64,000 nucleotides of DNA, taken from NCBI RefSeq assembly GCF_900105615.1, contig NZ_LT630003.1, positions 2,666,001-2,730,000 on the forward strand. Direction: 5' to 3'. The translations under genes were made by a program, and so were the position numbers. This stretch comes from Lacrimispora sphenoides JCM 1415 (lineage in GTDB: Bacteria > Bacillota > Clostridia > Lachnospirales > Lachnospiraceae). The notes beneath the pieces were generated by a model, which did not search any database, was not told the DNA's origin, and saw only the letters and a program-made list of their open reading frames with translations. Positions 1 to 4,051 of the stretch are shown piece after piece (within the stretch, counting starts at the first letter, position 1; every line of letters begins with the position of its first letter).

Positions 1-595
1 ATTGCTCTTTAAGCTGTATTAAGGATTCCTCAATTTTGGCCGTTGATATCGGGTCAAGTGCTGAACATGGTCTGTCCAGCAAAATAACTTCCGGCTCAAG
101 AGCCAAAACTCTGGCAATACACAAGCGCTGCTGCTGACCACCGGATAACCTGGCTGCAGGAGTATCCAGCCTATCTTTGACATCATCCCAGAGGGCAGAC
201 ATACGCAGAGCTTTTTCCACTTCCTCTGCCACATCCGCCTTGGATTTCATTCCACCCATACGGGGGCCCAATGCGACATTGTCAAAGATGGACATAGGCA
301 GAGGCGTTGGTACATCAAAGACCATCCCCACCCTGCGGCGCAGTTCTGTCACATTAACATCCGGATCAAAGATGTTTTTCCCTTCTAAAAGTATCTCACC
401 CTCATGACGGGCTCCCACCGTCAAGTCACTTAGACGGTTTAATGTGCGAAGCAATGTTGTTATTCCACTATTGGCTGGACCAAAAACAGCCATAATCCGA
501 TTTTTAGGTATCTCCAGGTTAAGTTCTTTAATAACCTGCTTTTGTTGATAATAGAAGTTTAATCCTTTTATTTCTATTTTTGATTTCTGTGTCAT
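1..595 (-). CDS. Degenerate PstB-like phosphate ABC transporter ATPase (3' end cut by window)
   Basis: The protein is of the PstB type and continues past the window edge. About 198 residues are visible from the ATG at 595, which follows AGAGGTGAAAA. It is the last visible gene of the pst operon, 10 bases after pstA. The Walker A loop near residues 39-47 reads GPANSGITT, so the invariant lysine is isoleucine. The Walker B end reads LLDRPCSALDP near residue 174, so the catalytic glutamate is arginine. The signature LSGGQQQRL near residue 148 is perfect. The other ATPase of the operon shows the reverse pattern. I infer that the two form an asymmetric heterodimer in which this subunit supplies the signature motif to the working site and does not hydrolyse ATP in its own. 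The frame is open with normal codon use, so it is not a pseudogene in the visible part. Confidence 0.85.
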   Translation of the reverse strand, partial: MTQKSKIEIKGLNFYYQQKQVIKELNLEIPKNRIMAVFGPANSGITTLLRTLNRLSDLTVGARHEGEILLEGKNIFDPDVNVTELRRRVGMVFDVPTPLPMSIFDNVALGPRMGGMKSKADVAEEVEKALRMSALWDDVKDRLDTPAARLSGGQQQRLCIARVLALEPEVILLDRPCSALDPISTAKIEESLIQLKEQ

Positions 596-605
596 TTTTC
601 ACCTC

Positions 606-1442
606 TTAACGGCCTTTAGCTATGAATCTATTGACCAGCATATTGAAACCAACATTAAGCAGAAGAATAAGAATAATCAAGAGCGCTGCTGTTCCATAAG
701 CGTTATCCATGGATATTCCCTCCCTCGCCAGTATATAAAAATGTACTGCCATCGTTCGAGTTGGGGAGAAGATTGATGTAGGCATGCGCAATGCAGAGCC
801 TGCTGTTAAAATAACAGCAGCTGTCTCAGCTACACATCGCCCTATACTCAAAATTACTCCATTAACTATTCCGGGGAGTGCTGATGGGAGTACCGTCCTG
901 GTTATTGCCTGCCACTTTGTAAGTCCCAAAGAGAAGCCTACCTCCCGGTATAGCTGCGGCACAGTACGAATCGCCTCTTCTGATGTACGTATGATAGTAG
1001 GCAGAATCATGATAGCCATGGTTAATCCGCCGGACAAAATTGACCATCCCATTTTTAAGTAAATAACAAAGAAGATAAAACCAAAAAGTCCATAAACAAT
1101 GGAGGGTATCCCTGCCAGAGACTCGGCACTGAAACGGATAATGCGGGTGACTCTGCTCTCACGTGTGTACTCCGTAAGGTAGATAGCTGTTCCAATTCCA
1201 AATGGTGTTGCGACAATTACGGCTACTGCAGTCACAATCAAAGTACCGACAATGGAAGAAGAAATACCCCCTGAACGGCCCATATCCCGCGGAATATCTG
1301 TTAAAAACTGCCAGCTGAGCATAGGTATGCCCTTGATTAGTATATGGATAATTATAGAAAAAAGAATTGCAATAACAAGAAGAGCAGCTGTCCAAATCAA
1401 AAATTTTGCTATCTTTTCGGAAGCTTTCGCGTTAATTCTCAT
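606..1442 (-). CDS. pstA: Phosphate ABC transporter permease PstA
   Basis: Inner-membrane permease of the high-affinity phosphate importer, 278 residues with about six hydrophobic segments. The family signature is seen in the central stretch with IPSIVYGLFG and in the cytoplasmic coupling loop SLGLTKWQAITRTVLPSALPGI, which would contact the ATPases. The start at 1442 is preferred over upstream codons because AGAGGTGAGG lies just before it. That leaves 7 bases to the end of pstC, so the two permeases are probably translated together. Its neighbours are pstC upstream and the degenerate ATPase gene downstream. Identification rests on sequence similarity and operon context and is firm. Confidence 0.93.
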   Translation of the reverse strand: MRINAKASEKIAKFLIWTAALLVIAILFSIIIHILIKGIPMLSWQFLTDIPRDMGRSGGISSSIVGTLIVTAVAVIVATPFGIGTAIYLTEYTRESRVTRIIRFSAESLAGIPSIVYGLFGFIFFVIYLKMGWSILSGGLTMAIMILPTIIRTSEEAIRTVPQLYREVGFSLGLTKWQAITRTVLPSALPGIVNGVILSIGRCVAETAAVILTAGSALRMPTSIFSPTRTMAVHFYILAREGISMDNAYGTAALLIILILLLNVGFNMLVNRFIAKGR

Positions 1443-1449
1443 AATGACC

Positions 1450-2295
1450 TCACCTCTTTCGTGTGATGTATTGGGCAGAAGCATTTAAAATCATGATAAT
1501 GACAAACAATACAATACCTGTGGCGAAAAGCGCCTGCTGGTGTTCGCCTGATGCATATCCCATCTCAATACCGATATTCGTGGTCAGTGTCCTGACAGGG
1601 TCAAGAACTGATTCAGGAAGTGCAACAGCATTACCCAGAACCATAATCACCGCCATAGTCTCACCAATTGCCCTGCCTAAACCTAAAATTACGGCGGCAA
1701 CGATACCCGACTTGGCCGCAGGTAACAGCAAGGAACGTATCGTTTGCCATTGTGTCAATCCTAATGCAAGTGCTCCATCCTTATAATGGCGCGGCAGCGC
1801 AAGGAGAGATACTTCGGTGATACTGATGATCGTTGGCAGGATCATAATACCCAAAATGATGGAACCGGCCAATATGCTTAAGCCCGGCCCTCCCAGATAG
1901 TTACGTATCATTGGTACAACGAACAATACTCCCCAGAACCCATATACCACGGAAGGTATGGCAGCCAGCAACTGGATGGCGGGTCTGAATATGTTTCTAA
2001 GTTTTGCAGGAGCAAACTCAGCCAGAAAAATGCTGCAGCAAATGGCGATGGGAACTCCCAGGATTGCTGCTCCTAAAGTGACCGATACAGATCCCACTAT
2101 CATCGGGAAAATGCCATAGGCACCTTGGCTTGGAGCCCATTTCATCCCAAAAACAAAGTTTATTATACCAACCTTGGCAATAATAGGGATACCTTTTATA
2201 AATATAAACACAGTGATTAACGCAAGCACTGATAAAGTCGAAAGAGCAATTAGAAGAAACACACGCTCAGATAATTTTTCTTTAAAATTCTTCAT
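1450..2295 (-). CDS. pstC: Phosphate ABC transporter permease PstC
   Basis: Second transmembrane subunit of the Pst phosphate importer, 281 residues with an N-terminal membrane anchor and further hydrophobic segments. AIPSVVYGFWG and the coupling loop LALGLTQWQTIRSLLLPAAKSGI match PstC. Its ATG overlaps the stop codon of pstS in an ATGA arrangement, so translation of binding protein and permease is coupled. With PstA it forms the membrane channel. Length is near the family norm and nothing is missing. Confidence 0.93.
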   Translation of the reverse strand: MKNFKEKLSERVFLLIALSTLSVLALITVFIFIKGIPIIAKVGIINFVFGMKWAPSQGAYGIFPMIVGSVSVTLGAAILGVPIAICCSIFLAEFAPAKLRNIFRPAIQLLAAIPSVVYGFWGVLFVVPMIRNYLGGPGLSILAGSIILGIMILPTIISITEVSLLALPRHYKDGALALGLTQWQTIRSLLLPAAKSGIVAAVILGLGRAIGETMAVIMVLGNAVALPESVLDPVRTLTTNIGIEMGYASGEHQQALFATGIVLFVIIMILNASAQYITRKR

Positions 2296-3140
2296 TTTCC
2301 TGCCCCCTCTTCTGATGGAATAAGTCCCTCATTGGTCAGTAATTTTTGCCCTTCTGAAGAAAGGGTAAAATCTATGAATTCCCTATTTAACCCAGTCGGC
2401 TCGCCGTCAGTAACAAATAAAAACTGCCTGGATAGTCTATAGCTGCCATTCATTATATTTTCTCGTGTCGCTTCGATGCCATCTAAATGTAAAGCTTTCA
2501 CTTCATCTGTAACCAAACCCAAAGAGATAAATCCTATCGCATTGGGGTCATCCGCAACCAATTGCCGTACCGCCCCATTGGAGTCCTGTACGATAGCTTT
2601 CGGGGTTATCTCTTCTTCCCCCATCAACAGCTCCGCAAAGGCACTTCTTGTACCTGAACCTTCTTCACGCGCTATGATATTGATCTTTGACTTTGTGCCT
2701 CCCAATTGGCTCCAGTCGGTAATTGTAGCAGCGTAAATATCGCGAATCTGATCTGATGTAAGGTCTTGTATCGGATTCCTTGGGTTAACTATTAATACCA
2801 ATCCATCCTTGGCAATTTCTACATTCCACAGATTTTTCTCCTCATCGGTCAATGCTCGGGAGGACATTCCAATATCAGCACTGTGTGTCTTGGTTGCCGT
2901 AATGCCGGCCGAAGATCCTCCACCCTGGATATCAATCACAGCATCTGGATTTAAAGCCATGTACTCTTCTGCCAGAATCTCAGCATAGGGTTGTACGGAA
3001 GTTGAGCCTGCAACAATCGTAGCTGAGCCAGGTGCCTGGCTGCATGCAGTCAGCACACCCATAGAAAGGGTCAATATCACTACGCTGACAGAACCTTTTA
3101 TTCGTCTTAATAATTTGCACGTTACAATCTTTTTCCTCAT
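2292..3140 (-). CDS. pstS: Phosphate-binding lipoprotein PstS
   Basis: Extracellular solute-binding lipoprotein that captures phosphate and delivers it to PstCA. The N-terminus has a basic stretch, a hydrophobic core and the lipobox LTAC at residues 30-33, so the mature protein should be lipid-anchored at Cys33. The phosphate-site loops SSAGI and GSGTRSAF are present. I start it at the ATG at 3140, preceded by GAGAG, rather than the TTG at 3158, which has no ribosome binding site. It overlaps pstC by four bases. The 113 bases between this ATG and the pstB stop hold no clear terminator, so pstB and pstS are probably cotranscribed. Confidence 0.93.
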   Translation of the reverse strand: MRKKIVTCKLLRRIKGSVSVVILTLSMGVLTACSQAPGSATIVAGSTSVQPYAEILAEEYMALNPDAVIDIQGGGSSAGITATKTHSADIGMSSRALTDEEKNLWNVEIAKDGLVLIVNPRNPIQDLTSDQIRDIYAATITDWSQLGGTKSKINIIAREEGSGTRSAFAELLMGEEEITPKAIVQDSNGAVRQLVADDPNAIGFISLGLVTDEVKALHLDGIEATRENIMNGSYRLSRQFLFVTDGEPTGLNREFIDFTLSSEGQKLLTNEGLIPSEEGAGK

Positions 3141-3253
3141 GTCTCTCACAAAAATCAAACATCAAAATCATCAGCTATGATAAAACTCCAATGCTTGATT
3201 TCCTCCATTTCTCAGAATATATTAAAGAACTGCAAGTTCACATTTTAAAATTT

Positions 3254-4051
3254 TTATCCGAACCGACCTGTAATATAGTCCTCGGTGCGTTTATCCTTTG
3301 GATTTGCAAAAATTTCTGCTGTTGGAGCATATTCGACCAATGTCCCCGCTCTATCATGATCCATCATCATAAAAGCAGTCATATGAGATACCCTTGCCGC
3401 TTGTTCCATACTATGAGTTACAATAATGATCGTATATTTTTGCGCCAGTTCCTCCATTAACCCCTCAACTTGCATTGTAGATTCCGGATCAAGAGCACTG
3501 CAGGATTCATCCATTAATAAAACCTCAGGCTCCACAGCCAATGCACGGGCAATACACAGACGCTGCTGCTGGCCCGGAGAAAGATCAAACGCGGATTCTT
3601 TCAGCTTGTCCTTAACTTCGTCCCATAAAGCTACCTGGTTCAAGTTCCTTTCCACAATCTCATCAAGACGGGCTCTTTGCTTTATTCCATGGTGCCTTGG
3701 ACCAAAAGCCATATTATCATACACAGACATAGGAAAGGGATTAGGTTTTTGAAAAACCATTCCAACTCTTTTTTTCAGTGCAACAACATCCATACTTTTA
3801 TCATAGATAGAAACACCATCAAGCATAATTTTTCCCTCTACCCTAACTCCTGGTATCGGGTCATTCATACGATTAAAAAGACGCAGAAGAGAAGATTTAC
3901 CGCATCCCGACGGCCCAATTATGGCTGTAATAGCACATTCCGTAATATCCATTGTGACATTCCTCAGCGCTTGGAAGTTGCCATAAAATAGGTTTACCGC
4001 ATCTGTTTTTATCTTGGCTTTTTGCCCAGATTTTAACATTTGATCATCCAT
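3254..4051 (-). CDS. pstB: Phosphate ABC transporter ATPase PstB (signature motif altered)
   Basis: Cytoplasmic ATPase of the phosphate importer, 265 residues. Walker A is GPSGCGKSS at residues 46-54, Walker B ends [10 protein letters not shown] with the catalytic glutamate present, and the H-loop reads VTHSMEQ. The ABC signature is LSPGQ instead of LSGGQ. In the operon's other ATPase (1-595) the signature is intact and the Walker residues are lost. ABC signatures act in trans across a dimer, so these two changes fit an asymmetric heterodimer with one good and one dead ATP site. It is the first gene of the operon, an unusual place for pstB, and its ATG follows GAGGGTGACGA. A PHO box lies about 140 bases upstream. 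Confidence 0.93.

Follow-up and report, generated by a model that had tools for sequence, protein, structure and literature searches.

The phosphate importer PstSCAB of Escherichia coli has two equivalent canonical ATP sites. Whether ATP-binding cassette (ABC) importers hydrolyse one or two ATP molecules per substrate has long been asked, mostly with the help of engineered mixed dimers. ATP sites of an ABC dimer are described as built jointly from motifs of the two subunits, and degenerate sites as standard in exporters, the commonest changes in human degenerate-site proteins being those of the signature and of Glu to Asp (passages of PMC7756269). The yeast exporter Pdr5 has Cys for the Walker A Lys and Asn for the Walker B Glu, together with a partner signature LNVEQ (PMC7756269). 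Among importers, RbsA and NupO of Bacillus subtilis have a degenerate site, with a second Walker A without Lys and a non-canonical signature; in the same passages PstBA/PstBB of B. subtilis figures as a mixed pair, and degeneracy is not mentioned for it (PMC11466899). In Enterococcus faecalis, tandem pstB1 and pstB2 genes belong to one pst-phoU operon and have non-equivalent roles, and Healy et al. 2025 termed tandem pstB genes unstudied (passages of PMC12096839). Here, a pst operon with two pstB genes is described from Lacrimispora sphenoides JCM 1415; the window, i.e. the whole stretch of DNA analysed, comprises 64,000 nucleotides of contig NZ_LT630003.1 (positions 2,666,001 to 2,730,000). 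The two ATPases have complementary motif losses, and very probably they act as an obligate PstB1-PstB2 heterodimer with one hydrolytic site and one degenerate hinge.

Complementary motif losses in PstB1 and PstB2

The two genes and their motifs are located in the window as follows.

3254..4051, minus strand: pstB1, 265 amino acids; NCBIfam TIGR00972, 385.5 bits against a cut-off of 343.2
3890..3916, minus strand: PstB1 Walker A, intact (amino acids 46-54)
3569..3583, minus strand: PstB1 signature LSPGQ, degenerate (amino acids 157-161)
3503..3520, minus strand: PstB1 Walker B LLMDES, intact (amino acids 178-183)
1..595, minus strand: pstB2, codons 1-198 of 253; the remaining 167 bases lie beyond the window edge
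455..481, minus strand: PstB2 Walker A GPANSGITT, degenerate (K45 to I)
308..319, minus strand: PstB2 Q-loop FDVP, degenerate (Q94 to D)
134..148, minus strand: PstB2 signature LSGGQ, intact (amino acids 150-154)
68..82, minus strand: PstB2 Walker B LLDRP, degenerate (E175 to R)

The complete pstB2, encoding 253 amino acids, was taken from the genome sequence (L001:9834-10595). In PstB1 the Walker A, Q-loop, Walker B, D-loop and H-loop (VTHS) are all intact and only the signature is altered; the intact Walker A, Walker B and H-loop beside LSPGQ, reported in an earlier sequence-only reading of this DNA, were confirmed on re-reading. The same reading had noted that PstB2 keeps LSGGQ and has lost the Walker A Lys and the catalytic Glu, which holds, and had overlooked a third loss, Q94D in the Q-loop. 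SALD follows the Walker B motif of PstB2, and its H-loop (APHT) retains the His. At codon 45 a single base separates Ile from Lys (ATA vs AAA); E175R (AGA) and Q94D (GAT) are two base changes away each.

As ATP sites are composite, a PstB1-PstB2 heterodimer would have one full and one degenerate site. By motifs, the full site combines Walker A, Q-loop, Walker B and H-loop of PstB1 with LSGGQ of PstB2, and at the degenerate site Lys, Gln and Glu are lost in PstB2 and the signature is altered in PstB1. Loss of Glu in one subunit, a non-canonical signature opposite and a consensus motif set at the other site, by which degenerate sites are recognized, were thus all present. Either homodimer would be without a complete ATP site. 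The complementarity proposed earlier therefore stands, and that one site is 'wholly dead' may be read from the motifs as a probable state. The predicted structure of PstB2 had a mean predicted local distance difference test score (pLDDT) of 93.9 and a predicted template modelling score (pTM) of 0.91; the closest solved fold was that of E. coli PstB (template modelling score, TM-score, 0.90-0.94; 51% identity), and PstB2 is predicted to fold as an intact ABC ATPase.

Conservation and pairing of the two types

Protein searches were carried out with PstB1 and with PstB2, and the best 120 of about 8000 scored candidates were read for each, many of them closely alike; the counts out of 120 below refer to these sets. 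In the PstB2 relatives the Walker A Lys was absent from 120/120 (Ile 118, Val 1, Thr 1), the Q-loop carried Asp or Glu in 120/120, the Walker B position was Arg in 118, Lys in one and Glu in one, and the signature was LSGGQ in 119 and LSGCQ in one. A second gene that is intact or has decayed at random, which the sequence-only reading had set against its own proposal, was not seen in this set beyond that one Walker B Glu and one LSGCQ. A canonical H-loop motif was present in one protein of the set. One relative carried LLMDEPCSALDP and one MVTHNMQQ in place of degenerate motifs; perhaps both come from a single chimeric or gene-converted sequence. In the PstB1 relatives Walker A (always GPSGCGKS[ST]), Q-loop, Walker B DES and H-loop were intact in 120/120. 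LSGGQ occurred in none of the 120, and 19 seven-residue signature variants were observed, most commonly LSPGQQQ (45), LAPGQQQ (24) and LAPGEQQ (23). In the class sample, which served as a control, 11/11 PstB proteins from outside the clade had [LM]SGGQ. Pairwise ratios of nonsynonymous to synonymous substitution rates (dN/dS) against seven relatives were 0.029-0.122 for PstB1 and 0.030-0.121 for PstB2, several dS values being >1 and synonymous sites near saturation in several comparisons. Both genes are under purifying selection.

PstB proteins were grouped by motif: canonical proteins have every motif intact, the PstB2 type retains SGGQ and has lost the Q-loop Gln, the PstB1 type is altered in the signature alone, and the remainder would be 'other'; none of 192 proteins was 'other'. 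The scoring of pst loci for Walker A Lys, Glu and signature, as the sequence-only reading had proposed, covered 134 loci with a readable PstB (own locus included, one fragment of 209 amino acids excluded, some loci near-identical) and yielded 51 complementary pairs from three phyla. These comprised 23 loci of a Bacillota type, 22 of a Chloroflexota type and six of an Aminicenantota type; a further 16 loci had the PstB2 type alone, five had two canonical genes and 62 had one. Because most loci were retrieved by likeness to PstB2, these counts are not population frequencies. Wherever a PstB2 type shared its locus with a second pstB, the second was of the PstB1 type (51/51; in two of them a third pstB, canonical, is also present). 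This pairing, the conserved motifs and the purifying selection sustain the earlier argument that matching losses reflect co-evolution and not decay. The notion that every two-pstB locus is asymmetric was refuted by the five canonical ones; since loci L120-L122, two of which come from one genus, were taken from top-scoring TIGR00972 rows, a selection favouring canonical genes, the five are an existence proof and give no rate.

The 16 lone PstB2 loci include the window's own (L083), whose partner is known, and L006, whose partner is truncated at a contig edge. In 11 others a PstB1 type was present elsewhere in the genome (L026, L084, L028, L029, L100, L101, L114, L116, L125, L126 and L131); L026 and L084 appear to be one genome. 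No PstB1 type was found in the genomes of L085 (G370) and L098 (G717), where the other PstB proteins read had LSGGQ. The remaining lone locus, L012, is cut at its contig start. L029 was considered as a partnerless PstB2 and was rejected: its contig is without pstC or pstS before pstA, and a PstB1 type (LAIGR) was found on another contig. The pstA-pstB2 genes of L029 adjoin unrelated, phage-like frames, and this contig may be chimeric.

As a reverse control, 43 Anaerolineae genomes without a close PstB2 were searched, and 38 gave a PstB match. From 30 of the 38, one locus apiece was read (31 PstB proteins), with LSGGQ in 28 and another signature in three. In one exception, G705, a PstB2 type lies on the same contig, cut at the contig end; in another, G713, a frameshifted PstB2 type with Walker B LLDNP lies directly upstream. 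The genome G757 (L211, L212) is off-pattern, with a PstB1 type (LVEGQ) next to an inverted pstB (GPSLSGKSS and LSGGQ) and, on another contig, a third pstB (SQRP and LSAGQ). L132/L170 (G004, same genus as the window) was rejected as an asymmetric locus and proved to be a separate, canonical-type operon; it has two pstS-like frames, and its pstB is interrupted by TAG (frame of 209 amino acids). In G662, the genome of L011, a canonical pstB (C1:3327669-3328429) is split into two frames, which may leave this genome with the asymmetric pair as its sole intact Pst ATPase; the split could be an assembly error, as pstC and pstA of L011 are also split.

Graded loss, distribution and gene order

Among the 67 PstB2-type proteins the Q-loop residue was Ala in 36, Asp in 25 and Glu in six, the Walker A Lys was retained in 34, and the Walker B position was Glu in 28, Arg in 31, Asn in seven and Ala in one. 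The losses are graded, from the Q-loop only, through Q-loop and Glu, to Q-loop, Glu and Lys. The H-loop His is replaced by Asn in the Aminicenantota type (His 50, Asn 5 in the 55 PstB2-type proteins of the tree). The 51 PstB1-type proteins showed 22 five-residue signatures, with LSLGQ (15) and LSPGQ (12) the commonest. A tree was built from 151 proteins, thinned from 192 at 93% identity, and a second run was made with 44 motif columns removed. The PstB2 type formed one side of a single branch, with Shimodaira-Hasegawa-like approximate likelihood ratio support (SH-aLRT) of 100 with the motif columns and 97 without them. The PstB1 types fell into three clades in the quick tree; a constrained tree joining them scored 87.9 log units better (approximately unbiased test, p-AU 0.979), and three origins of the PstB1 type are accordingly not supported. 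A single origin is not rejected and is unproven. The history needing the fewest assumptions is a single ancient division between catalytic and non-catalytic subunits, with erosion following step by step.

By parsimony, the PstB1 type (40 proteins) had 0 changes at the Walker A Lys, Q-loop Gln, Walker B Asp and Glu, D-loop Asp and H-loop His, and 11, 15, 3 and 9 changes at signature positions 2-5. The PstB2 type (55) had 0 changes at signature positions 2-5, with nine at Lys, seven at Gln, six at Glu and one at His, and the canonical proteins (56) had 0 at all of these positions. In the Chloroflexota type, the PstB1 signature Ser was replaced in 9/9 pairs in which the PstB2 Glu was lost (L115, L123, L124, G689, G695, G696, G713, G731 and G739; G717, having no pair, was omitted) and in 1/22 in which it was kept. 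The two residues belong to different proteins, yet would both face one dead site. This covariation reflects few events, since all eight Glu-less proteins placed in the tree group in a single subclade (support 80). In the Bacillota type, Q-loop Asp or Glu occurred with Walker B Arg in 31/31 proteins and in 118/120 of the best PstB2 relatives; Q-loop Ala and Walker B Arg were never found together in the PstB2-type set.

Within the window's genus, PstB2 was present at >=91% identity in 14/25 genomes, own included; PstB1 passed the threshold in 13 of these 14 and ran off the contig in G016. The class sample held the type in 3/391 genomes (own, G026 and G370), the other 11 matches being canonical. 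A scan of species genomes gave 27 loci of the Bacillota clade type among 80 kept, with PstB1 fully readable in 22 and the order B1-S-C-A-B2 in 22/22 of these; L017 has phoU after B1. At L006 a fragment of B1 is present at a contig edge, and L012, L026 and L028 are truncated by the contig start. The patchy occurrence suggests spread of the asymmetric operon through horizontal transfer. One such operon, L020, comes from a metagenome-assembled genome labelled Treponema, either by mis-binning or by inter-phylum transfer. A restriction of the asymmetry to Lacrimispora and relatives was overturned by half-broken pairs of a milder form in L077 (Anaerolineales) and in L047 and L054 (Saccharicenans, placed in Aminicenantota at NCBI and within Acidobacteriota in GTDB). 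Among 80 genomes from the class of L077, 37 encoded a relative of that locus's PstB2-type protein at >=59% identity, and all 30 of those examined had the PstB2 type. In the phylum of L047 (119 genomes), six had a match at >=57%, of which five were read (not G796), all of the PstB2 type; two matches at 56% identity were both canonical.

The host genome is a single contig of 5.30 Mb, and the locus has the order pstB1-pstS-pstC-pstA-pstB2-phoU on the minus strand. The partner genes are the following.

2292..3158, minus strand: pstS, phosphate-binding protein; TIGR02136 (subfamily model), 229.5 bits against a cut-off of 206.6
1450..2295, minus strand: pstC, permease; TIGR02138, 298.7 bits against a cut-off of 196.45
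606..1484, minus strand: pstA, permease; TIGR00974, 285.4 bits against a cut-off of 193.45
L001:9136-9798, beyond the window, after pstB2: phoU, passing its NCBIfam cut-off

By our own reading of the frames, pstS likely starts at 3140, its product being a probable lipoprotein, and pstA likely starts at 1442. PstS, PstC, PstA and PhoU all pass NCBIfam cut-offs within one operon, and the family membership of PstS supports phosphate as the putative substrate. TIGR00972 gave 341.8 bits with PstB2, marginally below the cut-off, yet it is the best family for this protein; the strict cut-off is passed by PstB1 alone. A second pst operon of the ordinary form, pstS-C-A-B-phoU, is also present in this genome; its PstB has the H-loop IVTHN, and near this operon a putative response regulator and sensor kinase could be read from the open reading frames.

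Proposed mechanism, alternatives and known systems

In the proposed mechanism, a PstB1-PstB2 heterodimer beneath the PstC-PstA permease would power phosphate import. Walker A, Q-loop, Walker B and H-loop of PstB1 would meet LSGGQ of PstB2 at the sole hydrolytic site, and the Walker face of PstB2 together with LSPGQ of PstB1 would form a degenerate, non-hydrolysing site serving as a structural hinge. We infer both the assembly, from the complementarity, and the single-site chemistry; from the latter, probably one ATP would be hydrolysed per cycle, and the cost would be one ATP per phosphate only on condition that no hydrolysis ever takes place at the dead site.

Several observations weigh against this scheme. 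The single Walker B Glu and the single LSGCQ occur among the best PstB2 relatives. G370 has a PstB2 type without a PstB1 type and only canonical PstB elsewhere in the genome, G717 a PstB2 type with three other PstB, all LSGGQ, and G757, without a PstB2 type, an LVEGQ PstB1 type beside a PstB that keeps K, Q, E, H and LSGGQ. The zeros within classes are partly built in, because the classes are motif-defined, yet no protein was discarded or unclassed. The covariation of Glu and Ser fails in the Bacillota type, where Ser is kept and Glu lost in 17/23 pairs, and in the Aminicenantota type Ser is lost with Glu kept in 2/6 pairs. A further PstB match besides the pair was found in 24/30 clade genomes and in the host genome, so that mixed dimers are possible. 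As the MgATP affinity of degenerate sites is sometimes comparable to that of consensus sites (passages of PMC7756269), loss of nucleotide binding at the dead site is not a given.

Tentatively, the scheme may be extended to an old family of single-site phosphate importers in three phyla, in which one PstB lineage turned non-catalytic once and eroded in parallel, the dead pocket of the Bacillota type being a nucleotide-free latch; this wider proposal is doubtful as a whole. A salt bridge between the Q-loop Asp or Glu and the Walker B Arg may replace Mg-ATP there, a guess from a single tree split. If the latch family is real, one phosphate would be imported per single ATP.

It is very improbable that PstB2 is a regulatory pseudo-ATPase outside the dimer, engaged for example in PhoU docking or signalling, with transport driven by a PstB1 homodimer. 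Pseudo-enzymes often turn regulators, and phoU follows pstB2 here and in 21/27 clade loci; in L017, however, it stands after B1 and does not adjoin B2. A PstB1 homodimer would, moreover, have two altered signatures, the PstB1 signature varies as though it faced no ATP, and LSGGQ in 119/120 PstB2 relatives would have no obvious purpose unless it faced the ATP of a partner.

Very improbably, PstB1 and/or PstB2 function chiefly in mixtures with the canonical PstB that the second pst operon encodes. A canonical PstB is present in the same genome, with a counterpart by identity in 24/25 genus genomes searched, and in G370 the PstB2 type occurs with canonical PstB only, located elsewhere. Mixing would, however, leave the complementarity of the B1 and B2 losses unexplained, and 11/25 genus genomes hold a canonical-like PstB without PstB2. 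At E <= 1e-55 the pair was also found without another PstB in 6/30 clade genomes (G664, G666, G669, G675, G677 and G683), a weak point, as genome completeness is not established.

Gene decay or sequencing error can be practically dismissed: K to I is a one-base difference, but E175R and Q94D need two changes each and Lys is absent from 120/120, so that the single-base error considered in the sequence-only reading is rejected, and random decay is ruled out by motif conservation and low dN/dS (0.03-0.12), with a confident intact fold and a preserved operon.

On the obligate heterodimer reading, nature appears to have built a one-site importer, with graded forms within one clade. Such proteins would be ready-made for measuring the ATP cost per phosphate and the role of a degenerate site in an importer. 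For annotation and for the reading of two-pstB operons it matters that a catalytically dead partner can carry the name PstB. The same lopsided design in Bacillota, Chloroflexota and Aminicenantota points to an evolved feature, not decay.

In comparison with known systems, the E. coli PstSCAB structures (PDB 9k3s and 9k3x; 9k3y has the same PstB sequence) contain the same subunits as here, with a single PstB sequence where the present system has two distinct subunits and one predicted site; the literature search yielded no paper describing those structures, and the comparison was drawn from database rows. In E. faecalis the two pstB genes are adjacent and all motifs are reported in both, whereas here they are separated and have complementary losses; excess PstB2 substitutes for PstB1 in that species, which the present arrangement should not allow (passages of PMC12096839). 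The novelty claimed for an importer held in part. In the open-access literature, no title or abstract among the matches listed describes a PstB pair that is degenerate or complementary (preprints and subscription papers being outside this scope), but RbsA and NupO are degenerate importers already on record, so that what is new is Pst, the separate genes and the breadth. RbsA and NupO are type II importers with two ATPase domains fused in one chain, unlike PstB1 and PstB2 from separate genes (passages of PMC11466899).

The likeness to CFTR and TM287/288 drawn earlier is sound as far as one consensus and one degenerate site are concerned: proteins of the TM287/288, TmrAB and CFTR types combine these in a heterodimer or full-length protein, as proposed here, but are not importers, unlike Pst (passages of PMC7756269). 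Pdr5 is closer, as several motifs of one site are changed at once both there and in the PstB pair. It differs in being an exporter and a full-length single chain and in having also lost the H-loop His; PstB2 keeps this His, and its best family is PstB rather than that exporter family. At the dead site, Pdr5 has Cys for the Walker A Lys, and PstB2 has Ile for this Lys and Arg for the Glu (passages of PMC7756269). Pdr5 would accordingly be the closest mechanistic match, by analogy of mechanism and not by descent.

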